DNA from: an uncultured Bacteroidales bacterium
GTDB lineage: Bacteria; Bacteroidota; Bacteroidia; Bacteroidales; Muribaculaceae
NCBI GenBank assembly: GCA_902776955.1
Contig: CACYSG010000030.1
Span: 1-63,314, forward strand
Direction: 5' to 3'
Length of the DNA: 63,314 bases
The notes under the pieces were generated by a model that did no database searches, was not told where the DNA came from, and was given only the letters and a program-made list of their open reading frames with translations. A program made the translations under genes and the position numbers. This document shows, one piece after another, positions 6,947 to 11,616 of this stretch. How positions within the stretch are numbered: the first letter of the stretch is position 1; every line of letters starts with the position of its first letter.

Positions 6947-7030
6947 AGGTGCTGGATTTAAGTAACGCCTTGGTGCAGAACCTGCAGGATGTAGGGCCTC
7001 GCCTTGGCGTGGCCGCAATGAGGCAAAATA

Positions 7031-7262
7031 AACTACGAATTACACGAATTTTACTAATTGGCATCCGCGTTCAATTAAGCCAAATTTCACGAATTGCGGC
7101 CTCGACTTGGCGTGAAGTAATACCAAGGGGAAGTGCATCATTGGGACGGGAAGGTGACAGCATCGGGGAAGGTGCATCATTGGGACGGGTCTTTGTGATG
7201 GCGTCGCTTCGCTTTGGCCATCAAAAGAACGCGTCCCAGCTGATAGCACCCGTGCTCTCAAG
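7031..7262. repeat. Left arm of the inverted repeat flanking the radical SAM cassette
   Basis: Two blocks. Block b (7031-7114) starts AACTACGAATTACACGAATT. Block A (7153-7262) contains the reverse complement of GGGTGCCATCAGCTGGGAC. Both return in inverted orientation at 9819-9902 and 9653-9762 with only a few differences each (by eye). Related single blocks occur at 9556-9594, 12985-13106, 19519-19670 and 37389-37640, so these are dispersed repeats that happen to bracket this cassette symmetrically. Long frames across it are repeat-derived. Confidence 0.75.
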
Positions 7263-7272
7263 TGAAACAACT

Positions 7273-7432
7273 CTAACCTCTAAACTCTAAACTGCGAGCG
7301 CAAGACCGCATATTTGCGGATGCCCCCTCTAAACTCTAACCACTAAACTCTAAACTGCGGGCTCGAGACCGCATATTTGCGGATGCCCCCTCTAAACTCT
7401 AACCTCTAAACTCTAAACTGCGAGCGCTAGCG
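7273..7432. repeat. 63-bp tandem repeat, about 2.5 copies
   Basis: The unit CTAACCTCTAAACTCTAAAC plus a segment with the small palindrome CCGCATATTTGCGG recurs at 7273, 7336 and 7399 (period 63 bp). The last copy runs into the stop codon of the radical SAM gene. The CTAAACTCTAAC-like heptad composition resembles tracts at 11760-11870 and 57035-57060. Confidence 0.75.
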
Positions 7433-8707
7433 ATGCGTTAGGTTGCGGGAATAGATTTTGACGATGCCGTCGAGGAAGGCGTTGAGTTCATATTCGCAGA
7501 AGTCGCCTGTGTCGGCCACATTGCCCGTCTCGTAGTAGCCGCGGGCACGGCAGGCGCCGCCACAGATGTAACGGATGGCGCAGTCGCGGCATTTGCCGAT
7601 GTGGTCCACGTCGAGCGAGGCGCAACGGCGCAAGGCTGGCGAGTCGCGGTAGATTTCCTTGATGCTGCGCTCGTGCACATTGCCAGCGAGCAGCTCGTCG
7701 ATGTGAAGCAACTGGCACGGATAGACGTCGCCCGTGGGCGAGATGCTGATTTCGTTGTCGCCAATCGCGCATTTATGGGTCTGGATGCATTTGGATATGT
7801 CCAGTGACGACTCGCAGTAGCCGAGCGGATTCACCCCGAAGGCGCCCGCCAGCGCGTCATAGTATTGCCGACCCGTGATGGACAGCTCGTCGTCGGCGAG
7901 GTCCGACACGGGGAATAGCGGCGCGTAGTTCAGCCGCCCACCGAAACGTCGTGCCATCTCCTCGACCTGGCCGATGTTCAGCCTCGTGACGGTCATCGAG
8001 AGCGTATAGTCGATATCGTTCCGCTCCAGGATATCCGCGGCTCGCATCACCTGGTCATAGTTGTCGCCACGCGTCAGGCTATGGGTCTCCCGCGTGGGGC
8101 CGTCGATGCTCAGCGTCACCAGATTGAAAGTTTCCTTGATGAAAGGGGCATTCTGCTCGTTGATGAGCAGGCCGTTGGTCAACAGGAGCATATCGCAGCC
8201 GCAGGCCTTGCCATAGGCCGACACCGGCTGCCATAGCGGGTTGAGCAGCGGTTCGCCGCCCGTGATAGTGATGGACAGATGGGCTGACAGGTCACACAGG
8301 TCATCTATCAGACGTTTATACTCGTCCAGCGTCAGCCGCGGATGGGCTCTCTCAACACGTTCGGCGGCATAGCAGTACTTGCAGCGCAGGTTGCACTCGC
8401 TCGACAAGGACAGGTGCACACAATGGAGCCCCGTGTCGCGAGGCGGCTGCTCGTGGGGCTCGGTCTCAAAGATGGACGAGTCCACCACATGGCGGCAAAA
8501 GGCTTCCACCTCTTCCCGCCGTTCGTTACCCATGACACCGCATGCCGCCTCCACGATTTCGGCGACCGTATTATTGCCGTCAAACTGTGACAAGATGAGC
8601 CGTCCCAGCTCGTTGGTAACCAGCCAGGCGGGCAGCAAGGGGTTGATAAACACATATTTATCGCCCCGCTTGAACATCTGTACCTGTTCGGGGAGTCTAT
8701 ATCGCAT
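7427..8707 (-). CDS. Radical SAM/SPASM peptide maturase with PqqD-like N-terminus
   Basis: A 426-residue protein. Residues 1-80 resemble a PqqD-type recognition domain (NPLLPAWLVTNELGRLILSQFDG). The radical SAM core follows, with the [4Fe-4S] motif CNLRCKYC (Cys105, 109, 112), the GGEP segment TITGGEPLLNP and LSIDGPTRETHS. The C-terminus is a Cys-rich SPASM domain holding auxiliary clusters (SPTGDVYPCQLL, then CRDCAIRYICGGACRARG and a late Cys). Such enzymes use S-adenosylmethionine radical chemistry to install thioether or C-C links in ribosomal peptides. It lies 45 nt downstream of the Cys-repeat protein gene on the same strand, which makes that protein the obvious substrate. The reaction type is not deducible. 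It could instead be an anaerobic sulfatase-maturase relative, but no sulfatase is nearby. Confidence 0.88.
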   Translation of the reverse strand: MRYRLPEQVQMFKRGDKYVFINPLLPAWLVTNELGRLILSQFDGNNTVAEIVEAACGVMGNERREEVEAFCRHVVDSSIFETEPHEQPPRDTGLHCVHLSLSSECNLRCKYCYAAERVERAHPRLTLDEYKRLIDDLCDLSAHLSITITGGEPLLNPLWQPVSAYGKACGCDMLLLTNGLLINEQNAPFIKETFNLVTLSIDGPTRETHSLTRGDNYDQVMRAADILERNDIDYTLSMTVTRLNIGQVEEMARRFGGRLNYAPLFPVSDLADDELSITGRQYYDALAGAFGVNPLGYCESSLDISKCIQTHKCAIGDNEISISPTGDVYPCQLLHIDELLAGNVHERSIKEIYRDSPALRRCASLDVDHIGKCRDCAIRYICGGACRARGYYETGNVADTGDFCEYELNAFLDGIVKIYSRNLTHR

Positions 8708-8752
8708 GGGATATCGCTAAAGGTTTCTCGCTGGGGATATGCCTCCTTCTGC

Positions 8753-9418
8753 TTAGCGGTTCTGGCCGCCGCAGTTATAGGACGACCCGCACTTGCCGCC
8801 ACCGCCGGCGCACTCGTAGGAACTGCCGCATTTGCCCTGACCATTGGCACCCTGCCCGGCACAACTGTAAGAAGAGCCGCACTTGCCGCCACCACCGGCA
8901 CACTCATAGGAACTGCCACACTTACCCTGGCCGTTGGCGCCCTGGCCTGTGCAACTGTAAGAAGAGCCACATTTGCCACCACCGCCGGCACACTCGTAGG
9001 AACTGCCGCACTTGCCCTGGCCGCTGGCACCCTGGCCCGTGCAACTGTAGGAGGAGCCGCACTTGCCGCCACCGCCCGAGCACTCATAGGAACTGCCGCA
9101 CTTGCCCTGGCCTTCGGCACCTTGGCCGCTGCACCCGTAGGAGGAGCCGCACTTGCCGCCACCGCCGGCGCATTCATAGGAACTGCCGCACTTGCCCTGG
9201 CCGTTGGCGCCCTGACCACTGCACTCGTAGGACGAGCCGCACTTGCCGCCACCGCCGGCGCACTCATAGGAAGACGAGCAGTTACCTTTGCCCGAAGGGT
9301 CGCCTGCGGGCATCTCTCCGGCCTTGGCACCGAAGAATAGCGACGGCTGAACCACACTGGCCGCTACCAGCGCCGCCAGCTTCTTGATAAAATCCCTGCG
9401 TGATTGTTCATTATCCAT
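8753..9418 (-). CDS. TAT-exported Cys-repeat protein, candidate radical SAM RiPP precursor
   Basis: A 221-residue protein. The N-terminus MDNEQSRRDFIKKLAALVAA is a twin-arginine signal (SRRDFIK, then a hydrophobic stretch). From residue 45 to the end it is a regular repeat: six dyads of about 30 residues, each made of GKCGSSYECAGGG and GKCGSSYxCxGQGAxGQ. This gives 12 C-x5-C units and 24 cysteines, with virtually only G, S, K, C, Y, E, Q, A and N. There is no globular domain. It is upstream of and likely co-transcribed with the radical SAM gene. Inference: a multi-core precursor modified in the cytoplasm and exported folded or cross-linked by Tat. Alternatives are a metal-binding or structural surface protein. 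I know of no named family that I can assign with confidence. Confidence 0.82.
   Translation of the reverse strand: MDNEQSRRDFIKKLAALVAASVVQPSLFFGAKAGEMPAGDPSGKGNCSSSYECAGGGGKCGSSYECSGQGANGQGKCGSSYECAGGGGKCGSSYGCSGQGAEGQGKCGSSYECSGGGGKCGSSYSCTGQGASGQGKCGSSYECAGGGGKCGSSYSCTGQGANGQGKCGSSYECAGGGGKCGSSYSCAGQGANGQGKCGSSYECAGGGGKCGSSYNCGGQNR
8756..9286. repeat. 90-bp coding tandem repeat inside the Cys-repeat protein
   Basis: Six in-frame copies of a roughly 90-bp unit encode the C-x5-C dyads. Copies differ mostly at third positions and at the variable residue before the second Cys, so the array is partly homogenised and prone to copy-number change. It is not a CRISPR: there are no unique spacers and the frame is kept throughout. 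Confidence 0.88.
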
Positions 9419-9448: not shown

Positions 9449-9480
9449 CAAATTTACGAAAAAAACTCCATAAATCCAAG
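9449..9480 (-). promoter_or_regulatory. Promoter of the Cys-repeat/radical SAM operon
   Basis: On the minus strand TAAATTTG (9449-9456) is the -7 box. CTTG (9477-9480) sits at the -33 position with a 20-nt spacer, one mismatch from TTTG. The start codon at 9418 is 30 nt downstream, with a purine-rich AAAGGGAGAAAA between. Confidence 0.65.
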
Positions 9481-9652: not shown

Positions 9653-9902
9653 CTTGAGAGCACGGGTGCCATCAGCTGGGACGCGTTCTTTTGATGGCCA
9701 AAGCGAAGCGACGCCATCACAAAGACCCGTCCCAATGATGCACCTCCCCCGATGCTGTCACCACCCCAAAAAGCGCCATCAACAAGACCCGTCCCCATTC
9801 GCTGGCGGGTAGCGGCCACGCCAAGGCGAGGCCGCAATTCGTGAAATTTGGCTTAATTGAACGCGGATGCCAAATTAGTAAAATTCGTGTAATTCGTAGT
9901 TT
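9653..9902. repeat. Right arm of the inverted repeat flanking the radical SAM cassette
   Basis: Block A (9653-9762) and block b (9819-9902) are the inverted counterparts of 7153-7262 and 7031-7114. A partial extra b block lies at 9556-9594. A hairpin AACGGCC…GGCCGTT follows at about 9914-9940. The whole 9419-9987 interval, apart from the promoter, is repeat sequence with no credible gene. Confidence 0.75.
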
Positions 9903-9987
9903 TAGATAGAACGAACGGCCACGCCAAGGCGAGGCCGTTCATTCTGTAGGTTCTACACTAATGGGGGGGTACCAGGCACTAGCGTCT

Positions 9988-11616
9988 TTACTTCACGACC
10001 TTAATGGTGGCGGTGGTGCCGTCACTGCGGGTGGTGCGCTGCAGGTAGATGCCGCTAGCGGGCTCGGCGGGCAGCTGGCGACCGGTGAGGTCGTAGTAGC
10101 GGGTGTCGATCACACGGGCGGTGCCGTCGAGTTCGCTGATGCCAGTATGGAAATCATTCTCAACGGTGGCTACCTCAGAGTAGTTAACCTCGCCGCCACC
10201 GGTGTAGAAGCTCTGCACGCCGATGGTGTTGAAGTTGGTGTTGTAGATATAAACGGTGTGACGGCCGTCGTTGCCCATATAGATGTCGAAGTTGATGTTG
10301 TCCTCAAACTTGTAGGGGATATCGGTCATGGCGCTCGAGAAGCCGATATAGGCCTCGGGCTCAAAGGTGAAGACCTCGCCGTCGAGCAGGATGTTGTAGT
10401 ACAACTTGTTGTCGTTGATCCTGTAGCCCTCGACATCAACAACGGGGATGGTGAAGTGGATCACAGCCCAACCTGCGGCATTGTTGACCATGAGGTCGTC
10501 TTGAGTGAGGACGGGCGTGGCGGGCGTGGCGGGCATCTCGTCAAAGGCGACGAGGCCGGGAGCCACATAGTCGTTGATGATCTGGAGCGTGTTGGGGCCG
10601 ATGTTGGTAACCATCGAGGCAGGCCACTCGGCAACCAGGCTGTGTGCGTCCTCATCGACATTGAAGACAATCTGGTCGTTGAGGTTGTAGTTGAACACGG
10701 TGCTGCTGTAGGTCTCGCTGTCGATAAAGGCGTCGGCGGTGAGCAGGTAGACGTGGCCGTTATAATAGGGGTCAACGCCCAGGTACTGGCGTGTGGGGAA
10801 GATGGCCTTGCCGTCGCGCAGGGTACCCTTGACAAACGAATCCCAGTTGTTGTCGTTGAGGTTGCCCATGTAGATGTCCTCGCCGTCGATAATCACGTCG
10901 AGGATGCGCTCCTTGGTCTTGGTGAGGTCGGTGGGGTCTGACAGGTAGGTCATGGTATAACCCTCGATGTAGTAATCGTCAAACGAGAAGACCAGGGGCT
11001 CGTCGTTCTGCGGTGCATAGACGATGTGCTGGTCGGCCATGTAGAACCAGTCGGCGGTAGCGTCACACAGGCCAATGTACTTGTCTCCCAGCTGGGTGAG
11101 CACACCGTCCTGCCAGGTGAACTCGATCTCGCCTTCCTCTTCAACAACGGGCATGCCCTCGTCCTCGTCGTAGTGCATGCAGTAGGCATAGTAGGGATCG
11201 CCGTAGTCGAGGATGTAGAGCTGGGGCAGCTTCACGACATACTTGCCGTCGCCGGCAGGCTCGGCCTTGATCCAGGGCAGGATCGAGAACCAGATGTAGC
11301 CCTGAGAGATGGGATTGTAGATGTAGAGGTTGCCATCGTCGCCCTCGACCACCTTGCCGATGCCGCCATCAACCTCCTGGATGTAAATGTCGCCCCAGCC
11401 CAGTCCGTAGGCCGACGAGGTGGCATACATGTTGTCATAGAGGAGACCCTCGGGAGCGTCCATGATGGGCTCCTCATCTTCGCGGGCGGGAGCCATAGCG
11501 GGAGCCTTGAACTGTGAGAGCCTCATGCCTGCTTGAGGCGCACGGTGCTGTGCCGTGGCATAGTTGGGCACGAGCAATGCCGCAACAAGTGCAAATAAAG
11601 TAAAGAATTGTTTCAT
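9988..11616 (-). CDS. Secreted protein of unknown function with type IX-like C-terminal sorting tail
   Basis: A 542-residue protein. MKQFFTLFALVAALLVPNYATAQ is a Sec signal peptide. The body is acidic, aromatic and beta-rich (many D, Y, W), without a motif I recognise. The C-terminal 40 residues, TRYYDLTGRQLPAEPASGIY followed by LQR…TIKVVK, match the pattern of Por/T9SS type A sorting domains (v-y-D-l-x-G-r…G-i-Y…K). It is therefore expected to be exported and delivered to the surface or medium. Single gene with its own promoter (11666-11697). Some Bacteroidales use this tail on large families of paralogous surface proteins whose function is unknown. Confidence 0.75.
   Translation of the reverse strand: MKQFFTLFALVAALLVPNYATAQHRAPQAGMRLSQFKAPAMAPAREDEEPIMDAPEGLLYDNMYATSSAYGLGWGDIYIQEVDGGIGKVVEGDDGNLYIYNPISQGYIWFSILPWIKAEPAGDGKYVVKLPQLYILDYGDPYYAYCMHYDEDEGMPVVEEEGEIEFTWQDGVLTQLGDKYIGLCDATADWFYMADQHIVYAPQNDEPLVFSFDDYYIEGYTMTYLSDPTDLTKTKERILDVIIDGEDIYMGNLNDNNWDSFVKGTLRDGKAIFPTRQYLGVDPYYNGHVYLLTADAFIDSETYSSTVFNYNLNDQIVFNVDEDAHSLVAEWPASMVTNIGPNTLQIINDYVAPGLVAFDEMPATPATPVLTQDDLMVNNAAGWAVIHFTIPVVDVEGYRINDNKLYYNILLDGEVFTFEPEAYIGFSSAMTDIPYKFEDNINFDIYMGNDGRHTVYIYNTNFNTIGVQSFYTGGGEVNYSEVATVENDFHTGISELDGTARVIDTRYYDLTGRQLPAEPASGIYLQRTTRSDGTTATIKVVK

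Follow-up and report, generated by a model that had tools for sequence, protein, structure and literature searches.

What does a radical SAM enzyme do beside a cysteine-repeat protein that carries a twin-arginine translocation (Tat) signal? The question was raised by a stretch of 63,314 nucleotides from an uncultured Muribaculaceae bacterium (contig CACYSG010000030.1 of assembly GCA_902776955.1), the whole of which is called the window below. Two genes lie there on the minus strand, a Tat-signal Cys-repeat gene and, 45 nt downstream, a radical SAM/SPASM gene, and both open reading frames (ORFs) were confirmed where the original prediction, made from the DNA letters alone, had placed them. Judged from genome sequences, the cassette was confirmed as a conserved, co-inherited pair in some gut Bacteroidales and green sulfur bacteria. 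The reading that we favour, with confidence slightly better than even, is a self-contained maturation-and-export cassette, in which Cys residues would be modified in the cytoplasm, probably to thioethers, and the intact protein would then be exported by Tat.

The presumed substrate and its parts occupy the following positions of the window:

8753-9418, minus strand: Tat-signal Gly/Cys-repeat protein, presumed substrate (ORF of 221 aa with 24 Cys; orthologues known).
9320-9418, minus strand: twin-arginine signal region (SRRDFIK ... AKA), approximately residues 1-33 (TIGR01409; cleavage site picked by eye).
8765-9283, minus strand: 12 C-x5-C units in six dyads (Tandem Repeats Finder, Cys spacing and shuffling).

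Tandem Repeats Finder detected a period of 90 nt in 5.5 copies (8778-9272), and the Cys residues follow one another at recurring spacings of 6, 7, 6 and 11. Twelve C-x5-C pairs were observed; when the letters of the protein were shuffled 2000 times, the pairs averaged 2.5 and never exceeded 7. Twelve KCGSSYxC units had been predicted; all twelve stand as C-x5-C units and 11 of them carry that motif, the first unit reading NCSSSYEC. The predicted family motif, GKCGSSYxC, proved too narrow, as relatives have CGSAFxC, CGSAWxC or CGIGAGC. The predicted twin-arginine signal passed the NCBIfam cut-off (TIGR01409, 22.1 bits against 16.7) and not the Pfam one (TAT, 13.4 bits against 22.7). TIGR01409 was matched at E values up to 0.1 by seven of eight aligned repeat proteins, that of G848 being the exception, and the RR pair was invariant in all eight. 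If the window's protein were cut after AKA, the unmodified remainder would have a calculated mass of 17,308.2 Da and retain all 24 Cys.

Both genes were followed in 297 genomes from the family of the window's bacterium, a sample of a larger group; for the enzyme, at most five first-look candidates were scored per genome. The enzyme was detected in 10 genomes at E values up to 1e-40 and was full length in 9, and the repeat-protein search returned exactly these 9 genomes, in each of which the repeat gene lay directly upstream of the enzyme gene. Repeat proteins that routinely lack the enzyme, named beforehand as evidence against the pairing, were not encountered in these genomes within the sensitivity of the search; the enzyme was adjacent in 9/9. 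The same arrangement was present in a metagenome-assembled genome of a goat duodenum Muribaculaceae bacterium (L004), which was not counted in addition to G222. G203 retained only a C-terminal remnant of the enzyme, within a contig (residues 280-423 in the numbering of the window's enzyme, 276-423 in that of G272), and a tblastn search of the surrounding 20 kb gave no repeat gene.

Outside the family, searches of the order and the phylum with the enzyme profile scored at most four first-look candidates per genome. The window's genome was the sole match among 393 genomes of the order at E values up to 1e-45, and 5 of 395 genomes of the phylum matched at E values up to 1e-40: G000, G848, G892 and the outgroups G940 and G722 (230 and 227 bits). 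With the repeat profile, G000 and G848 were the matches among 395 genomes of the phylum; G892, which the enzyme profile detected with equal settings in a sample of equal size, was not reported, so weak repeat proteins outside the family were perhaps missed. In the class of G848, 2 of 98 genomes had the enzyme at E values up to 1e-45. PF02043, a chlorosome protein family, occurred in G848 and G892 and not in G940 or G722, and the first two were therefore regarded as green sulfur bacteria. Directly upstream of the enzyme, both encode a Tat-signal protein, with six CGSAF[GE]C units in G848 and four CGIGAGC units in G892. A FastTree tree built from 13 enzymes grouped the two green sulfur sequences together (support 0.999), apart from Muribaculaceae.

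Which residues of the units are constrained was asked of 108 units, 98 from Muribaculaceae and 10 from the green sulfur genomes; the array of G179 is partly masked, and this protein was kept outside the eight-protein alignments and supplied only two units. Cys0, Cys6 and Gly8 were the sole positions invariant in all 108 units. One rival reading is that the enzyme links the aromatic residue of each unit, by a cyclophane or aryl link, and not Cys. Tyr or Trp occupies position +4 in 97 of the 98 Muribaculaceae units (it is masked in the remaining one), and G848 has Phe there in its 6 units; a model of a W-K-linking enzyme, WgkB, is among the better NCBIfam matches of the enzyme. However, in G892 the residue at +4 is Ala in every one of the four units, and the enzyme is retained there. 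Across these units the aromatic residue is thus dispensable, unlike the two Cys and one Gly, and we rate aromatic-centred chemistry as the least probable of the readings weighed here.

The original prediction had envisaged a cross-linked multi-core product. In a multi-core ribosomally synthesized and post-translationally modified peptide (RiPP), the modified units would be cut apart into small peptides. Tandem units with short Gly-rich linkers, an enzyme with a domain like the RiPP recognition element (RRE), a unit number that varies between classes (12, 6 and 4) and the short Cys peptide and ABC transporter gene that adjoin the outgroup enzymes of G940 and G722 are consistent with this. However, the unit number was 12 in all 8 unmasked Muribaculaceae proteins (6 in G848 and 4 in G892), and the units are conserved in protein sequence. 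Between same-type units within a genome, mean synonymous divergence (pS) was 0.15-0.95 and mean nonsynonymous divergence (pN) was 0.00-0.16 (8/8 genomes); the lowest pS values, in G001 and G172, are a sign of more recent homogenisation of these two arrays. Between species, 27 of 28 pairs showed a lower pN in the repeat region than in the signal region; only for G252-G272 was it higher in the repeat (0.12) than in the signal (0.08). No protease or exporter gene lies beside the cassette in all carriers; of the 122 ORFs with 100 aa or more that lie within 9.5 kb, the cassette genes apart, not one was common to all 11 carriers. Because the unit number is fixed and the units are individually conserved, the Muribaculaceae gene would encode one defined protein rather than a variable multi-core precursor, and the multi-core part of the prediction was given up as the main reading and is judged very unlikely.

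The presumed maturase was resolved into the following parts:

7427-8707, minus strand: RRE-like/radical SAM/SPASM enzyme, presumed maturase (ORF of 426 aa; domain matches).
8444-8707, minus strand: PqqD-like (RRE-like) N-terminal domain, approximately residues 1-88 (weak by Pfam; profile support).
7946-8428, minus strand: radical SAM core, with CNLRCKYC at residues 105-112 (Pfam, alignment).
7496-7771, minus strand: SPASM domain, with invariant Cys at residues 313, 331, 373, 376, 382, 386 and 404 (Pfam, alignment).

All three domains had been predicted. The radical SAM and SPASM domains of the window's enzyme were clear, both scoring over their Pfam cut-offs. The PqqD-like N-terminus was weak by Pfam (16.5 bits against a cut-off of 23.4, E 0.011), and PqqD was matched at E values up to 0.01 by one of eight aligned enzymes, also below the cut-off. 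Profile comparison supported it: the profile match to CteB covers the CteB N-terminal region, and hhalign aligned the N-terminal profile with the PqqD domain of two outgroup enzymes that pass the cut-off (probability 76, P 2.3e-5, with stretch ends chosen by the analyst and a single reversed control at 0.57).

Among solved structures, CteB (PDB 5WGG) gave the best profile match (E 8.1e-34). Seven SPASM Cys were invariant in the 11 family enzymes, with no invariant eighth (one letter is masked in G179). In passages of PMC6231123 and PMC8326336, CteB is associated with an open Aux I site and AlbA with seven Cys, and SuiB, PqqE and anSME are given as fully ligated. The seven Cys of the cassette enzymes, a likeness to the ranthipeptide/SCIFF systems in these passages that would extend to the open Aux I site, would give one auxiliary cluster one ligand too few, as in CteB, a thioether synthase. 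Because seven SPASM Cys are conserved, CteB is the nearest solved structure and only Cys and Gly are strictly kept in the units, we infer that the evidence favours Cys-directed thioether-type chemistry in the cassette.

In the sequence of events that we propose, the N-terminal RRE-like domain would bind the repeat protein, and the radical SAM centre would modify its C-x5-C units in the anaerobic cytoplasm. The most likely chemistry is the linking of a Cys sulfur to a nearby carbon as a thioether, with the substrate Cys held on the under-ligated SPASM cluster, as the conserved cysteines suggest. The compact modified protein would then enter the Tat pathway and be trimmed by ordinary signal peptidase, and the full-length multi-unit protein would work outside the inner membrane.

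How closely does this resemble a known system? As predicted, the repeat matched no named RiPP class, and no curated family fitted either gene. Like the cassette, the CteB/CteA pair combines radical SAM and SPASM domains with an N-terminal RRE region, putative in the cassette enzyme, and has a Cys-rich substrate. The presumed substrate of the cassette differs, being a protein of 221 aa and 24 Cys in which a Tat signal precedes the repeats, whereas the SCIFF precursor is short, with six Cys in forty-five residues; the SCIFF model TIGR03974 gave 98.7 bits for the enzyme of G848 and 87.7 for that of the window against a cut-off of 425. The top NCBIfam model for both enzymes was the sactipeptide maturase StsB (NF045574), which was matched by all eight aligned enzymes, but at 166 (window) and 171 bits (G848) against a cut-off of 625. 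The freyrasin maturase PapB follows a C-x3-D/E substrate rule, unlike the scored cassette units, where Asp or Glu never stands four residues after Cys; its model, NF047865, gave 99.4 bits for G848 and 92.3 for the window against 340. We know of no repeat array or Tat signal in the system of QhpD, the maturase of quinohemoprotein amine dehydrogenase, whose model (TIGR03906) gave 70.4 bits against 453 for the enzyme of G848. The likeness to these two lies in their reactions: passages of PMC11002830 present PapB as a radical SAM thioether synthase responsible for six Cys links per peptide, and a passage of PMC8326336 presents QhpD as one that forms thioethers on a protein and not on a natural product. 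Filing the enzyme under StsB, SCIFF, PapB or another listed NCBIfam model was rejected, as none among the matches listed reached its cut-off.

Why would such a product be exported by Tat? Tat is the route for cofactor-bearing and folded proteins, and it suits cargo that has been folded or cross-linked ahead of export, as the modified repeat protein would be. A search for Tat genes elsewhere in the genome, which had been proposed earlier, found TatC in the window's genome. TatC was present in 9 of the 11 carriers, the two without it being G001 (85% complete) and G179 (59%). A rival reading takes the repeat protein as an ordinary Tat cargo, whose unmodified Cys would bind a metal or iron-sulfur clusters, the enzyme touching only a handful of residues or producing some separate small molecule. 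The established use of Tat by cofactor-bearing proteins and the 24 paired Cys point this way, but the RRE-like and SPASM layout is typical of peptide modification and the two genes are strictly paired in two classes; we therefore judge this reading quite unlikely.

The strongest rival starts from the bufferins and EGKCG proteins, or oxazolins. Their maturases, the multinuclear non-heme iron-dependent oxidases (MNIOs), need oxygen, and the cassette hosts are anaerobes, which would make an oxygen-free counterpart attractive. In this reading the enzyme, like SbtM, would turn Cys into thiooxazole-type rings, and copper or another metal would be bound in the periplasm by the exported Cys/Gly repeat protein. 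No MNIO gene (PF05114) was found in any of the 11 carrier genomes, 4 of which are less than 90% complete, and in the units Gly follows Cys0 in 101 of 108 and Lys precedes it in 90 of 108. Passages of PMC12452194 describe MNIO substrates as signal-bearing Cys-repeat proteins that are modified and exported by the general pathway, with repeated EGKCG, a predicted beta-helix with inward Cys, and copper chelation. According to passages of PMC11002830, the radical SAM/SPASM enzyme SbtM takes four hydrogens and yields a thiooxazole, an analogy for which passages of PMC12538549 may also be cited. However, the cassette differs from the bufferin and oxazolin systems in its radical SAM enzyme, its C-x5-C units and a signal that is Tat and not Sec. 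The SbtM model gave 68.6 bits against 350 for the enzyme of G848, Lys precedes Cys0 in only 3 of the 10 green sulfur units, and no metal gene stands beside the cassette in all carriers, CorA being near in three. We consider this rival unlikely. Slightly less doubtful, and offered as speculation, is an extension of the favoured cassette model, in which the Tat signal would double as the leader for the maturase, Tat would be a checkpoint that passes only the modified protein, and the product would be an oxygen-independent, internally locked, extracytoplasmic counterpart of bufferins.

Several observations weigh against maturation and export by a self-contained cassette. The co-occurrence counts are not independent of phylogeny. 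TatC was also present in all 21 tested genomes without an intact cassette (20 of one genus and G203), which rules it out as a specific companion of the cassette. The RRE-like domain is weak by Pfam, and the StsB scores do not settle the reaction; the models of AhbD, a heme-pathway enzyme, and of WgkB rank high as well. An additional Cys298 is common to all nine Muribaculaceae enzymes and not found in the green sulfur ones, and it might complete the auxiliary cluster in some members. The number of separate loci may also be smaller than it looks: a ROK-family gene near the cassette in G172/G179 and in G252/G272 means that both groups may descend from one locus. Contigs were short in G001, G083 and G892, with 2, 5 and 3 ORFs, respectively. 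Furthermore, the repeat gene of both G848 and G892 is preceded, at a distance of 39 nt, by a Sel1-repeat gene (L107 6286-6741 and L119 3176-3835), which might be a local partner in these green sulfur bacteria.

What surrounds the cassette? The 11 carriers fell into six neighbourhood groups: the window's genome, G222 and G237 (CorA, DUF3332 and a lytic transglycosylase); G252 and G272 (pseudouridine synthase, esterase and RuvC); G172 and G179; G001; G083; and the two green sulfur genomes. The ROK-family gene was the widest-shared neighbour (4 of 11 carriers, at a distance of 0.1-8.5 kb). Just upstream in the window (9988-11616) is encoded a 542-aa protein that no Pfam or NCBIfam model matched over its cut-off; the counterparts of this protein in G222 and G237 lie approximately 4.3 kb from the cassette, with CorA and a 986-aa protein in between. 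On either side of the cassette stand long, imperfect inverted repeats (6970-7262 and 9653-9961 of the window); they were rejected as its ends, because the 113-bp core that was tested belongs to a repeat dispersed through the genome (44 matches). A 63-bp tandem repeat in 2.5 copies occupies 7269-7427, just 3' of the enzyme gene. In G940 and G722 (L120 1348-4295 and L121 1381-4326) the related enzyme (PqqD/radical SAM/SPASM) adjoins a short Cys-containing peptide, MFNPLGFASLS..., and the ABC transporter gene (PF00005) is also beside it; these loci are likely a separate, conventional-looking RiPP cluster.

One further feature was noted upstream of the repeat gene:

9449-9456, minus strand: TAAATTTG, possible -7 element of a Bacteroidota promoter (match to TAnnTTTG).

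TAnnTTTG is the -7 consensus of Bacteroidota promoters. Six loci had 150 nt of upstream DNA, and an element was counted when it lay at most 50 nt from the repeat gene; TAnnTTTG was present 29-41 nt upstream of that gene in 4 of the 6 (the window, G252, G272 and G083), a count for which the chance expectation was not computed. In G222 and G237 the repeat gene follows closely behind CorA without this element. In L006 (1501-3390) and L005 (868-2769) a second open frame runs across the repeat array, giving stop-to-stop ORFs of 630-634 codons in which the array is fused to the enzyme; given this second frame, gene-calling software may set the enzyme start wrongly or lose the repeat gene.

Mobile elements were also searched. 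Scans of viral contigs with the repeat profile and the green sulfur repeat proteins found no relative, and a plasmid scan with the repeat protein gave no match. Plasmid and phage scans with the enzyme returned relatives that were all less than 60% identical (23.8-31.7% among the matches listed). At its start, a contig from a viral collection (L025, 3-602) encodes the C-terminal part of an enzyme that shares 49% identity with that of the window, the upstream part being off the contig; it also bears a gene matching the major capsid protein GP7. This enzyme may be of phage or of host origin.

Has such a system been described before? No title among the full-text matches listed joined Tat to a radical SAM or ranthipeptide system, which is weak evidence, as subscription papers mostly lie outside such matches. 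The word Tat does not occur in the main text of a survey of Bacteroidales RiPP clusters (PMC10352776) or of PMC12452194. Passages of the latter call a general-pathway signal on a RiPP precursor a rare feature, and speak of Sec. We thus found no description of a Tat-exported Cys-repeat protein combined with a radical SAM maturase.

If the favoured reading is true, peptide-style radical chemistry would be joined in these bacteria to the export route for folded cargo. The cassette would then be a simple two-gene test bed that spans Muribaculaceae and two green sulfur bacteria, with a unit number that is naturally 12, 6 or 4 and an aromatic residue that is naturally missing in one member.

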